A stretch of DNA of 63,602 bases. It comes from an uncultured Anaerobiospirillum sp. Its GTDB lineage: Bacteria > Pseudomonadota > Gammaproteobacteria > Enterobacterales > Succinivibrionaceae. Position numbers and translations under genes: made by a program. Numbering within the stretch: position 1 is the first letter of the stretch; each line of letters starts with the position of its first letter. The stretch covers positions 1 through 63,602 of the forward strand of contig CALXOW010000101.1 in assembly GCA_944390115.1 (NCBI GenBank). The letters are read 5' to 3'. Below the pieces are notes generated by a model that searched no databases, was not told the origin of the DNA, and worked only from the letters and a program-made list of their open reading frames with translations. Below are positions 20,822-52,560 of this stretch, one piece after another.

Positions 20822-20980
20822 CTCAAGGCCTGACGATAGCCTGAGGGCTGGTGGCTCCATTCATTTCCTTAAGGGCGCAATTTTAGGAAGCCCGCCCACC
20901 CACCCTAACGAGGCGCGGCATCAGGTGCCGAGCGATCGGCTTTAGCCGCGCGTCAGGTACAGAGTTGCAGGGCGCAAGTT
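20822..20980. repeat. G4/stem-loop repeat R1, copy 1
   Basis: The order is CATTCATTTCCTTAAGGGCGC, then a C-tract core at 20891-20905 (CCC-N-CCC-N-CCC-N-CCC, so a perfect G-quadruplex motif on the - strand), then a stem-loop. The outer stem is GCGCGGC (20913-20919) / GCCGCGC (20945-20951). The inner stem is GCCGA / TCGGC (20927-20940) with a GCGA loop. Confidence 0.85.
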
Positions 20981-21009
20981 GGGCGCCAGGGCGCAAGCGC
21001 AGTACTAAG

Positions 21010-21169
21010 CTCAAGGCCTGGTAGCAGCCTGAGGGTCGGTGGCTCCATTCATTTCCTTAAGGGCGCAATTTTAGGAGGCCCGCCCGCCCACCCTAACGAG
21101 GCGCGGCATCAGGCACCAAGCGATCGGCTTTAGCCGCGCGTCAAGTGCAGAGTTGCAGGGCGCAAGTTC
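21010..21169. repeat. G4/stem-loop repeat R1, copy 2
   Basis: Second R1 copy, 188 bp after the first. The core is at 21079-21093 with the four C-tracts intact. The outer stem is conserved; the inner stem is weaker. It ends about 140 bp before the AraC-type gene at 21312. Confidence 0.85.
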
Positions 21170-21311
21170 GGTCGATATGAGCCAAGTTTTGCTCTAACGC
21201 GATATGTATCAGGTTCCTTGACATTTGATGAGAGTGCTAGGACGTAAGGTGCTAGGATTAGAATTACTGCCGCTTGGGGTGGCTGGTAAGAGGTGTGTGT
21301 GAGGGGTGGTC

Positions 21312-22496
21312 ATGAAGTCGCTATTTGAGCCGCTGTTAGATAACCTGCTGCAAGTGGCCGCGAGCCCAGTGCAGTTGCTCGATCAAAGTGGGCAAATTCT
21401 CTACAAGCAGGTGCCACGAGGCTGTAATGATCTGGCTCTGTCTGATCCGGTGCGCTTTGAGAGCGAGCAAAAGCGCATGCAGCAAGTGAGCTGCCCAGTG
21501 TGCTTAAGTTCAGCCGGGATGGAGCAAGAAGTGGCTGGATGGTACTTCCCCGATGGCTCCACGCTGCTTATTGGCCCGGTGGAGCGGCGCTCAGGCGAGG
21601 CGCTTGATACCTTTGTCCTGCGTAAAAACGCCATCAATGCGCAGCTCAAGTCCCTTGCTTGGACCGTGCGCCGTTTAGTGCCGCAAACCCCGCCGCAGGC
21701 TCATCAGTTTGAAGGCGATCCCATCGCGGCCTTAAAGGAATGCCCGGAGATCAGACCGTTTCTGCCGCAGTGGAGCGAGGTCTTGATGGAGGAAAATTCC
21801 CACAGTAGCTACCTCTTTGAGCTGCGCATCTTAGATGCGATTAGTCAAGGTAATCCCGAGCAAGTTGAGGCTAGCCAAGGGCTGCAACGCAATGGCCAAG
21901 ATGGCATCTTGGGCTATACCAAGCTGCGCTCCAACCAAAACCTCGCCATTTGCGGTGTGGTTTTAAACTCACGGGCCGCGATTGCAGGTGGGCTCAGTGT
22001 CGAGCAAGCATACACTATGGCCGACTATTTCATCTTAGCTATTGAGCGCTGCCAAAATGCCGATACGGCCTATAAGCTCGGACTGAAGAGCGCCGTCATC
22101 TTTGCCCAGCTGGTCCAAAAGCTCAAGAGCAGTGTCGAGCAAAAGCAGCCGCCGCGCTATTTAAGTCAGCAAGCGCTCGAGGTAATTCGCCGCTACTTAT
22201 TTATCAAGGTTGATCGCGCGCAGATCGCCGCTGAGCTTAAGGTCAATGAAGACTATTTAGACCGGGTGCTCAAGGAAGATCTCAATGTCACGGTCACCGA
22301 GTGCTTGCGTAATGAGCGTCTCGAGGAAGCCAAGCGTTTGCTGGTACAAAGCGAAACTCCGGTCTATGAGATTGCGTCCTTACTGCTCTTTAGCCACTCC
22401 TCGCACTTTATTCGTGTGTTCAAGGAGTACGTGGGCATGACCCCTGAGGCCTATCGCCGCCATAAGGCTAGCTACAACACCACCGCCGAGCTGTAG
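21312..22496 (+). CDS. AraC-family transcriptional regulator (alpha-galactosidase locus)
   Basis: Residues ~295-394 form an AraC-type DNA-binding domain with two helix-turn-helix units (DRAQIAAELKVNEDYLDRVL, then VYEIASLLLFSHSSHFIRVF followed by GMTPEAYRR). The long N-terminal part (~280 aa) includes a CPVC-type Cys pair (QQVSCPVCLSS) and is probably a sensor. It is a paralog of the regulator at 31178-32383; the two align through the middle (ELRILDAISQGN against YELAIMDAVRQGD). I use ATG 21312, which has GAGGGG just upstream, rather than GTG 21306. It faces the GH36 gene, so control of alpha-galactoside use is likely (inference). Confidence 0.9.
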   Translation: MKSLFEPLLDNLLQVAASPVQLLDQSGQILYKQVPRGCNDLALSDPVRFESEQKRMQQVSCPVCLSSAGMEQEVAGWYFPDGSTLLIGPVERRSGEALDTFVLRKNAINAQLKSLAWTVRRLVPQTPPQAHQFEGDPIAALKECPEIRPFLPQWSEVLMEENSHSSYLFELRILDAISQGNPEQVEASQGLQRNGQDGILGYTKLRSNQNLAICGVVLNSRAAIAGGLSVEQAYTMADYFILAIERCQNADTAYKLGLKSAVIFAQLVQKLKSSVEQKQPPRYLSQQALEVIRRYLFIKVDRAQIAAELKVNEDYLDRVLKEDLNVTVTECLRNERLEEAKRLLVQSETPVYEIASLLLFSHSSHFIRVFKEYVGMTPEAYRRHKASYNTTAEL

Positions 22497-50000: not shown

Positions 50001-51533
50001 GTTATCGCTGCTCAGTCGATCGGTGAGCCTGGTACCCAGCTGACCATGCGTACCTTCCACATCGGTGGTGCCGCTTCGCGTGCGGTAGCTGAGTCTGGTG
50101 CTACGGTTAAGAACTCCGGTACGATTCGTATCTTGAACTCCAAGACCGTAACCAATACCGATGGCAAGGAGGTTGTAACCTCGCGTCAATCCGAGTTACT
50201 GGTTATGGATGAGTTTGGCGCCTCCAAGGAAAGCCACAAGATTCCATACGGTGCGATCTTTGAGGTCCAGGATGGTCAAGAGGTTAAGGCCGGTACGGTC
50301 GTCGCCCGTTGGGACCCTCACACCCACCCAATTATCTCGGAAGTACATGGTCGCATTAAGTTCATTGACATCATCGAAGGTGTAACCGTTGACCGCAAGG
50401 AAGACGAGTCCTTAGGTATCGCCTCGATCGAAGTCCGTGAATTAGCCGCTCGTCCGTCCCAGGGTCGTGACAAGCGTCCAGCCGTTAAGATTATCGACGC
50501 TGACGGCAATGACGTTATGATCCCAGGCACCACGGTTCCTGCTCAGTACATGCTCCAAGGCAAGGCGATTGTCCAGCTCTTAGACGGTGCTGAGGTTAAC
50601 ATCGGTGACATTATTGCCCGTATTCCACAGCAAGCTGGTGGTACCAAGGACATTACCGGTGGTCTGCCACGTGTGGCTGACCTGTTCGAGGCCCGTGCGC
50701 CGAAGGAGCCTGCGATCTTAGCTGAGATCTCCGGTACTATTTCCTTTGGTAAGGAGACCAAGTCCAAGCGTCGTCTCATTATCACCCCAGAGGCTGGTAC
50801 CTTAGACGAGGCTGGCAACCCAATGGGCCCATACGAGGAGATGATTGCGCTGTCGCGTAACCTCAACGTATTCGAAGGTGAAAAGGTCCAGAAGGGCGAA
50901 ATGATCGCCGACGGTCCAGAGTCGCCACACGACATCTTAAGACTGCGTGGTGTTAACGCGGTCGCCAACTACATCGTCAACGAAGTTCAAGACGTGTACC
51001 GTCTGCAAGGCGTTAAGATCAACGATAAGCACATTGAGGTTATCGTGCGTCAGATGCTGCGCAAGTGCGAGATCTTGGACCCAGGTGACAGCACCGAGTT
51101 CTTAAAGGACGAGCAAGCCGAAGTCTCGTACGTACGTACCGTCAACGAGCGCTTGCTCAAGGATGGCAAGAAGCCAGTCCGTTACCGTCATATCCTGATG
51201 GGTCTGACCAAGGCTTCCTTGTCGACCGAGTCCTTCATCTCGGCCGCATCGTTCCAAGAGACCACCCGTGTCTTAACTGAGGCTTCGGTCGCAGGTAAGG
51301 TGGACGAGTTACGTGGCCTTAAGGAGAACGTCATCGTCGGTCGCTTAATCCCAGCTGGTACGGGCTTCAAGTACCACCAGCAGCGTCGTGAGGAGATTGC
51401 CCGCTCGCGTCAACACAATGAGTCGACCGAGAACAGCATGACCAACGACCAGGTGGAAAAGCAGATTTCGGCCGCCTTAGACAGCCTGAGCTATGCATCG
51501 GCCTTAGGTGCGACTTCCTCTGACACCATCTAA
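47052..51533 (+). CDS. rpoC: RNA polymerase beta' subunit, N-terminally extended
   Basis: The catalytic beta' subunit. I place the start at GTG 47052, with GGAGA 7 bases upstream; a longer frame to 46968 is unlikely. The 1493-aa protein exceeds E. coli (1407) by 86 residues. Residues 1-~50 form an added acidic/Ala-rich tail, so the first zinc site (Cys110, 112, 125, 128) is shifted by 40 from E. coli 70/72/85/88. A second small insert lies at ~631-657 (around [13 protein letters not shown]). The Mg-binding NADFDGDQM is at 498-506 (Asp500, 502, 504). The second zinc site is in [13 protein letters not shown]. Confidence 0.98.
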
Positions 51534-51583
51534 GCGGCGAAAAGCCTAATAAAGAACGCTCCGCACCACGGTGTGGGGCCTGA

Positions 51584-51630
51584 AGGGCCAATGAGACTAA
51601 CCCAACCGGGCAGTTTCATTGGCCCTTGTC
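51584..51630 (+). terminator. Hairpin after rpoC, probable operon terminator
   Basis: A 14-bp stem AAGGGCCAATGAGA / TTTCATTGGCCCTT with a G-U pair and a 17-nt loop, followed by GTCATATG rather than a clean T-run. Confidence 0.6.
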
Positions 51631-51744
51631 ATATGGGTTAACCCCAATGCCAACCATTACCAGTAAGCCTCAGAGCGCGCAATGGTTCCTGCGGGTAGCG
51701 CAATGAGGAGTGACTCAGGCCAGTGGTCGGGGCCAGGTGGCGCC

Positions 51745-52560
51745 CTAAGGTACAGCGACTCACTTCATTTCCTTAAGCGCGCAATTAAGGGGGCCCACCC
51801 GCCCACCCTGAGGGGGCGCGGCATCAGGTACGATGCAATCCGTACGAGCCGCGCCGCTCGGGCCGCAGTAGTGGTCTAGGTCTCAAGTGAGACCGGCTTC
51901 TCTCTTACGGACTACTGGGTCTCGAAGGGAAAAGGGCCGGTGTGGGCTTGAAGTGCGGGGGCTTGTTTCACTTCTTTGAGAGTGCAAGTGCGGAAGTGAG
52001 GGGGCGCGGCATCAGGTACGGTGCCATCCGTACGAGCCGCGCCACTCGGGCCGCAGGGTGGGGCAGTGGTCTCAAGTGAGCCCGGCTCCCCAGCCACGTA
52101 CCTAGTAGGTCTCGAAGTGGAAAGGGGTCGGTGTGGGCTTGAAGTGAGGTGGCTCACTTCATTTCCTTTAGAGGCGCAATTAAGGGGGCCCACCCGCCCA
52201 CCCTGAGGGGCGCGGCATCAGGTACGGTGCGATCCACTCTAGCCGCGCCACCGGGGCCGTAGTGTGGGGTAGTGGTCTCAAGTGAGCCCGGCTACCCTGC
52301 CACGGAGCGCTCGGTCTCGAAGGGGCAAGAGGCCGGTGTGGGCTTGAAGTGCGGTGGCTTGCTTCATTTCCTTTAGAGGCGCAATTAAGGGGGCCCGCCC
52401 ACCCACCCTGAGGGGCGCGGCATCAGGTACGGTGCGATGCTACTAGCCGCGCTGCTCGGGCCGTAGTATTGGTCCCGGTCTCAAGTGAGACTGGCTACCC
52501 TGCCACGGATCTAGTAGGTCTCTAAAGGGGAAAGGGCCGGTGTGGGCTTGAGGTATGGGA
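51745..52560. repeat. Four-unit R1 repeat array after rpoC
   Basis: Four units of ~190-215 bp. The marker GCATCAGGTA(C) occurs at 51821, 52009, 52215 and 52430. Each unit runs CACTTCATTTCC, G4/C-tract core, stem-loop GGCGCGGC/GCCGCGCC, GGTCTCAAGTGAG, and GGCCGGTGTGGGCTTGA. Cores are intact in units 1, 3 and 4 (51794-51808, 52189-52203, 52394-52408) and lost in unit 2. In units 1 and 2 an inner stem GTACG/CGTAC is also present (51828-51845; 52016-52033). The last unit ends ~40 bp before tusD. Confidence 0.92.

Follow-up and report, generated by a model that had tools for sequence, protein, structure and literature searches.

Multi-copy intergenic motifs with the make-up of quadruplexes or triplexes are already known from Escherichia coli, the Methanomicrobiaceae and Xanthomonas/Nostoc (PMC4666352, PMC8044849, PMC4692102; here and below, comparisons draw on excerpts of the cited reports). 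Here we describe a family of G-rich intergenic repeats in a 63,602-nucleotide (nt) stretch of DNA from an uncultured Anaerobiospirillum sp. (GenBank assembly GCA_944390115.1, contig CALXOW010000101.1, positions 1 to 63,602 of the forward strand; 'the window' denotes this whole stretch), whose core, GGGNGGGNGGGNGGG, holds four G-tracts parted by loops of one base. Three features set it apart from the described motifs: every loop is a single base, several flanks accompany the same core in long tandem units, and a deletion chimera is joined in or beside a core. We tentatively read the cores as the constant element of mosaic intergenic minisatellites that are specific to the lineage and in which a probable quadruplex (G4) drives slippage or recombination; the description of the repeat family itself we hold firmly, and the core probably folds as a quadruplex.

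The TMECO intrastrand-triplex repeats of E. coli follow the consensus CCCTCNCCC-N3-6-GGGNGAGGG-N3-GGGNGAGGG (Holder et al. 2015, PMC4666352). Like the present elements they are intergenic, occur in many copies, contain four G-tracts and show no strand bias, while their loci are rearranged among strains and, in that account, none was found on mobile elements; unlike them, the present cores combine single-base loops with a partial 5′ C-run (PMC4666352), and the stretch CCCTCNCCC-N3-6-GGGNGAGGG has 0 matches in the window, its first part being absent. The quadruplex motifs of the Methanomicrobiaceae are likewise lineage-specific and all intergenic, with a G-rich strand uncorrelated with gene strand, but have a central loop of 3-5 nt and a 3′ C3TC3 motif, and the excerpt of that report describes no tandem arrays (PMC8044849). 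The GGGNATC repeats of Xanthomonas and Nostoc resemble ours in being dispersed, mainly non-coding and biased towards four tracts, but are simple heptamer repeats tied to stability rather than deletion (Rehm et al. 2015, PMC4692102); their heptamer unit does not occur in the window cores, where loops are one base long.

Other known systems also come close. (G3T)n repeats form parallel quadruplexes and undergo slippage deletion in E. coli at strand-dependent rates (PMC10530614), and the (G3T)4 constructs have a core nearly identical to ours, with slippage and deletion, but are cloned plasmid repeats and not natural arrays (PMC10530614, PMC7023247). The pilE G4 of Neisseria is also tied to recombination, but is a single locus near pilE with a small-RNA promoter and silent donor copies (PMC3547852). 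Human minisatellites of the hCEB1 type, tested in yeast, likewise combine a G4-forming sequence with instability (PMC5491262), a likeness at the level of description. A limited, genus-based search of the Anaerobiospirillum literature (genome/intergenic; repeat/G-quadruplex), judged by titles and abstract openings or by mention of the genus, did not turn up these repeats among the papers listed.

The preliminary description of this DNA had listed 13 cores, and every coordinate and strand proved correct on checking the sequence, the core at 38705-38721 being the 15-nt core with one additional G per side; the GC content, put there at about 52%, is 53.8%. Its claim of an abundance above chance is borne out, with 0 cores in dinucleotide shuffles of the window (n=100) and 39 pattern matches, some overlapping or poly-G, in the whole draft (3.64 Mb, 123 contigs). 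The window (contig C101) makes up 1.7% of the bases and holds 13 of these 39 matches. None of the listed cores falls within a gene called by an in-house simple hexamer caller in the window and related stretches, poly-G matches being excluded from the core list, and the short open reading frames (ORFs) that overlap the cores at 37467 and 38706 are mechanical. With four G-tracts far above chance, many copies and an intergenic position, the element has the abundance and placement expected of an intergenic repetitive quadruplex motif.

Each core is part of an intergenic unit, most of the units being in tandem; their several flank types are common to the window's own genome (G000) and the closest relative compared (G003), a metagenome-assembled genome (MAG) of a sister species in the same genus. 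Read on the G-rich strand, A units have, 5′ of the core, a hairpin of 7 pairs (GCGCGGC...GCCGCGC). In 2 of 28 aligned rows a double change preserves one of these pairs, but the two rows represent one event only, because they are near-identical orthologues. B and C units are built to one plan, GGGCGC, GG, AAGC, GCACC, GCC, AT, core, CCACAC; in four D copies, two in each genome, 11-nt arms enclose a loop that contains the core (by eye), while another genus member, G009, has a flank type of its own around the core. Tandem periods in the window are 73, 161 and 205 bp, with 188 bp in the 20.8-kb pair. The stretch CATCAGG-N3-GGTGC, earlier thought to be shared by two flanks, does occur in the window, at 7 places, yet among the aligned flanks no more than 2 of 28 of A type and 6 of 24 of B/C type have it, and it was dropped as a hallmark of the family. 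The idea of one superfamily holds in part, for the core together with CC at its 3′ side (52 of the 63 cores examined from the two genomes) and CCC at most 16 nt 5′, at varying spacing (52 of 63), but the flanks form several families.

The G-tracts do not vary as freely as the loops. Among 28 pairs of adjacent units, differences fell on 6 of 336 tract sites (1.8%), 14 of 84 loop sites (16.7%) and 276 of 1400 flank sites (22.6% in 5′ flanks, 16.9% in 3′ flanks), counted over alignable cores in the register with fewest tract mismatches, with ungapped flanks and with coreless or three-tract units excluded. Six orthologous pairs, picked with cores present in both species, differed at 0 of 72 tract, 5 of 18 loop and 104 of 300 flank sites. 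This contrast upholds the view of a dispersed, conserved intergenic family rather than simple sequence.

Individual units nevertheless differ in their cores. Models made from the 5′ flanking sequence of copies that have a core (first pass, 150 candidates per genome) found 27 A-type copies in G000 and 21 in G003, and 21 and 16 B/C copies, respectively. Of the 48 A copies, 30 had an intact core, 3 had 1-2 tract changes, 2 had three tracts and 13 had no core; for the 37 B/C copies the corresponding numbers were 22, 8, 2 and 5, and one flank-found copy had five tracts. Per-position core counts cover the copies in which no more than 2 tract bases had changed, 33 of A and 30 of B/C type. Scores below 51 bits were obtained for twelve of the 48 A hits, one with a core carrying a changed tract base and eleven coreless. 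Core presence varies even among the units of a single array: six coreless A units with the junction CTCAC occur in five arrays, one each in G000 C101, C102 and C25 and G003 C52 and two in G003 C114, and as C101/C52 and C25/C114 are orthologous places, these amount to at most 3 independent sites. Read along the G-rich strand, several arrays end 3′ in a unit whose core is broken or absent, seen without a formal count and, for B/C, possibly reflecting the anchoring in 5′ flanks.

Comparison with the sister species places two losses, one of a gene block and one of most of another gene, at or beside these arrays. The order nusG-ROK-AraC-GPH-GH127-L11 is kept in G000, G009 and G010, and in G005 without ROK; G003 lacks AraC-GPH-GH127 at this locus, where the block is present in G005, G009 and G010, and GH127 has no match in the entire G003 draft (AraC and GPH were checked at the locus only). 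At the site of the lost block G003 carries, on the same strand, a C unit, then a C/B chimera, then B units. The chimera consists of a C-type 5′ flank, the core, CCACACCG (C-type) and then B-type sequence; one tract base of its core (position 9) is changed, as it is in two further C units of G003, whereas the first loop base is that of most B cores. This places the exchange either inside the core or no more than about 10 nt beyond its 3′ side, in both cases within a block common to B and C. Exchange at the first G-tract was considered and dropped, as the position-9 change and the next 8 bases are C-type. A junction of this kind is expected if direct B and C repeats recombine with loss of the DNA between them. 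The second G003 deletion has left part of gene 18178-19956, with a match to residues 508-592, against the edge of the A array. That gene encodes a hypothetical protein with several relatives in G000, G003, G009 and G010, truncated in G003 C58, and has no match in the remaining 7 genus members. Elsewhere, a tandem duplication of 2.2 kb (87% identity) on G000 C106 contains two paralogous genes and has its ends near B units.

Cores and tandem arrays also go together. Of the intergenic regions with a tandem period of at least 50 bp, 11 of 17 carry a core, against 21 of the 588 surveyed (Fisher p 2e-10 among regions of at least 300 bp), in a survey of 888 kb of 3.64 Mb that is biased to core-bearing contigs, most having been picked for a core; a 200-kb control (C1-C7) had 0 cores in 61 gaps of at least 300 bp. 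Two coreless arrays may be recorded here, a 138-bp × 4.9 intergenic tandem array without a G4 (L110, G000:C25:30637-31632) and a tRNA-like gene with its spacer, tandemly duplicated at a 105-bp period (L251, G000:C18:28157-28925). Twelve core-bearing gaps could be judged for a change of gene neighbourhood between G000 and G003, and 6 of them have changed (another 7 were unjudgeable).

The arrays fit slippage with template switching, and homologous recombination would explain the junctions too. Several observations count against a driving role of the quadruplex. Plain homologous recombination over the core and CCACAC gives the same chimera, and an exchange some 8-10 nt 3′ of the core would be simpler, and more likely, than one inside it, because the tract change of the chimera's core recurs in two further C units of G003. 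Some 63 nt separate the end of the second deletion from the core, both deletions and the chimera are read from a MAG assembly, and GH127 is also absent from G002, G004, G006 and G007. Six arrays with a period of at least 50 bp lack a core, one of them the tRNA-like duplication. Against controls drawn only from the G003 stretches examined, the 6 of 12 changed core-bearing gaps compare with 5 of 22 other gaps of at least 300 bp (p 0.14) or 9 of 50 of at least 100 bp (p 0.054; 326 unjudged), and the six represent about 3 events; the excess of rearrangement at core-bearing gaps is suggestive only, not significant. The comparable Xanthomonas motif, moreover, is tied to greater stability (PMC4692102).

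In a rival account, plain RecA recombination and slippage act on ordinary tandem repeats, the core being their best-conserved homology and no quadruplex being involved. The existence of coreless arrays, the exchange within the shared core and CCACAC block and the ending of the second deletion at a unit edge all agree with it; it leaves unexplained, however, why tracts are kept while loops vary and why the core recurs with unrelated flanks, and we consider it unlikely.

The orientation of the units relative to genes bears on a possible role in RNA. Units lie both ways, with the G-rich strand on either strand; the 16 G000 core-bearing gaps with both neighbours visible comprise 6 convergent, 8 tandem and 2 divergent, and gap 37408-37696 has G-rich strands on both strands. 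Terminators, attenuators or small RNAs would suit these hairpins near gene ends, and folding with RNA parameters and quadruplexes allowed predicts a G4 in 13 of 13 window cores. On the other hand, the indifference of the G-rich strand to gene direction and its presence on both strands of one gap do not suit such elements, an Rfam scan of the window returned tRNAs only, and we judge this explanation improbable. A bias to one replication strand, with contig GC skew as proxy, was dropped as inconsistent across unit types and G003 loci: the G-rich strand of B/C units is the negative-skew strand at 9 of 9 places in G000, and the G003 loci C35 and C47 are opposite, A types are mixed (4 vs 5), and D and F places are opposite.

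Across genomes the distribution is narrow. The pattern was found in 9 of 41 genomes searched, including the window's own, with 39 matches in G000, 47 in G003, 8 in G009, 7 in G008, 4 in G004, 2 in G023 and 1 each in G007, G038 and G040; many G003 matches overlap in poly-G at contig starts, and several low-count genomes match through poly-G or simple repeats. Poly-G runs beside repeats at two G003 contig starts (L090, L092) are probably sequencing artefacts; since many copies lie at contig ends, the true copy number is likely higher. At the thresholds used, the flank models found no A or B/C copies in the other 9 genus members, and a scan of 84,980 species genomes (near relatives of the window genome possibly excluded) gave a single MAG in which the A pattern includes an intact core. 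The gap 3′ of rpoC holds 4 hairpin units with 3 cores in G000, 5 with 4 in G003 and 3 units with 1 intact core in G009, with the G-rich strand opposite to rpoC in all three; the G010 contig ends within view of repeated units, of which one shows a degenerate core. No core occurs in this gap in G001, G002 or G004-G008, and G002 has an unrelated two-copy repeat there (all read by eye).

In another rival reading the core would be a DNA site used by the host, for a nucleoid, replication or topology protein or for a duplex GGGY-repeat binding protein, kept by purifying selection with the arrays tolerated. The strong tract constraint agrees with this, as do the rpoC-side arrays of three species, G-rich strand opposite rpoC (with another flank in G009), and an orthologous pair, G000 C12 and G003 C18, in which core and hairpin stay alike amid drifting surroundings. 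Set against them are the many units with changed, shortened or absent cores, the 32 of 41 genomes without the pattern, among them 5 of 11 genus members, and the mixed position and orientation relative to genes; a host site is, in our view, rather doubtful.

The elements had also been called possibly mobile, a notion that found no backing: nothing matched in the four combinations searched (A pattern in viral contigs, A unit in plasmids, C unit in phages, B/C pattern in viral contigs). Hairpin units, intergenic position and mosaic make-up would suit elements of the REP/BIME kind that a Y1 (RAYT-type) transposase moves, and Y1 transposases have 3 matches in G000 and 2 in G003. The contigs bearing them, however, have no element-model or core match (150 candidates scored per genome; drafts incomplete), the units are direct tandem repeats, and the longest Y1 matches lie in open frames of 149 (G000) and 146 (G003) codons, presumably closer to IS200 than to RAYT size. 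With the Y1 contigs lacking element matches, transposase-driven spread was rejected, and a REP/BIME origin seems very improbable. One Y1 transposase gene (L202, G000:C16) stands between two genes whose G009 orthologues (L102, G009:C33) flank one of the G009 cores. Separately, genes on G000 C102 (L114, L115) and their G003 counterparts (L089, L099) are >99% identical, against 73-91% at 4-fold sites of other compared genes, so that recent exchange is likely.

Table 1. Repeat elements of the window and segments absent from the sister genome G003 (window positions).
Feature	Position	Strand	Details
A-type array	20822..21171	-	two units 188 bp apart, cores 20891-20905, 21079-21093; upstream of AraC-family gene; hairpin GCGCGGC/GCCGCGC 5′ of core on - strand
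B-type array	30932..31176	-	73-bp period; cores 31030-31044, 31103-31117; degenerate unit beside 30972
C-type array	36293..36607	-	161-bp period; cores 36349-36363, 36510-36524
F-type core	37467..37481	+	a different flank, termed F
C-type unit	37582..37718	-	core 37638-37652
C-type unit	38534..38670	-	core 38590-38604
F-type core	38706..38720	+	flank similar to that of the 37467 core
A-type array 3′ of rpoC	51714..52554	-	period ~205 bp; four hairpin units, of which three contain a core (51794-51808, 52189-52203, 52394-52408)
Hairpin unit without G4 in rpoC-side A array	51998..52057	-	junction CCCTCAC
Block missing here in G003	31104..36363		~5.2 kb (AraC-family regulator, GPH symporter, GH127 enzyme); bounded by B and C arrays; ends approximate
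Segment missing in G003	18294..20821		~2.5 kb; includes the larger part of gene 18178-19956 and the region upstream of it; on the right it stops at the edge of the A array; ends approximate

Family searches identified RpoC, ribosomal protein L11, the GH127 enzyme, the GPH symporter and AraC and ROK regulators among the window genes; the names secE, nusG, L1, L10 and rpoB are our own reading of translations, outside those searches. This setting argues against programmed recombination for antigenic variation, the pilE-like role that the preliminary description had evoked. A similar four-tract motif and the link to recombination recall it, but there are dozens of sites, the searched window neighbours are regulators, sugar-use or housekeeping genes or have no family hit, and no donor cassettes were recognised among them (several being without a family hit), which leaves such a role barely credible.

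Other repeats and genes were noticed in the window. A 391-bp tandem duplication without a G4 (20084-20685) adjoins the A array, and 45-bp (15-codon) tandem repeats lie at 17113-17562, near the 3′ end of a 1509-amino-acid ORF (13313-17842). The ORFs 36739-37407 and 37697-38428 are distantly related, have no family hits and are flanked by C and F elements; G003 has a single gene in their place, with the element order C, F, C.

Under the minisatellite reading, the G-rich strand, single-stranded during replication or transcription, would fold into a parallel quadruplex that may stall the polymerase. Stalling would promote slippage, template switching or recombination between arrays, and these in turn could multiply units, build chimeras and delete intervening genes. 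Core integrity would then be kept by duplication driven by intact cores or by host use, two options inseparable here. A bolder version, which we regard as quite unlikely, makes the core a self-amplifying DNA module without a transposase, in which replication stalling duplicates the unit and joins unrelated repeat families, with gene loss as a side effect; were this true, tract integrity would stem from biased duplication and not from host benefit. The Anaerobiospirillum arrays offer a natural bacterial system of tandem repeats with a probable quadruplex core that differ between sister species, where intact, changed, three-tract and coreless units adjoin and a gene-block deletion junction appears to lie in or beside a core. 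Whether bacterial genomes are changed by quadruplexes, and whether these are selected or self-propagating, would here become testable by comparison.

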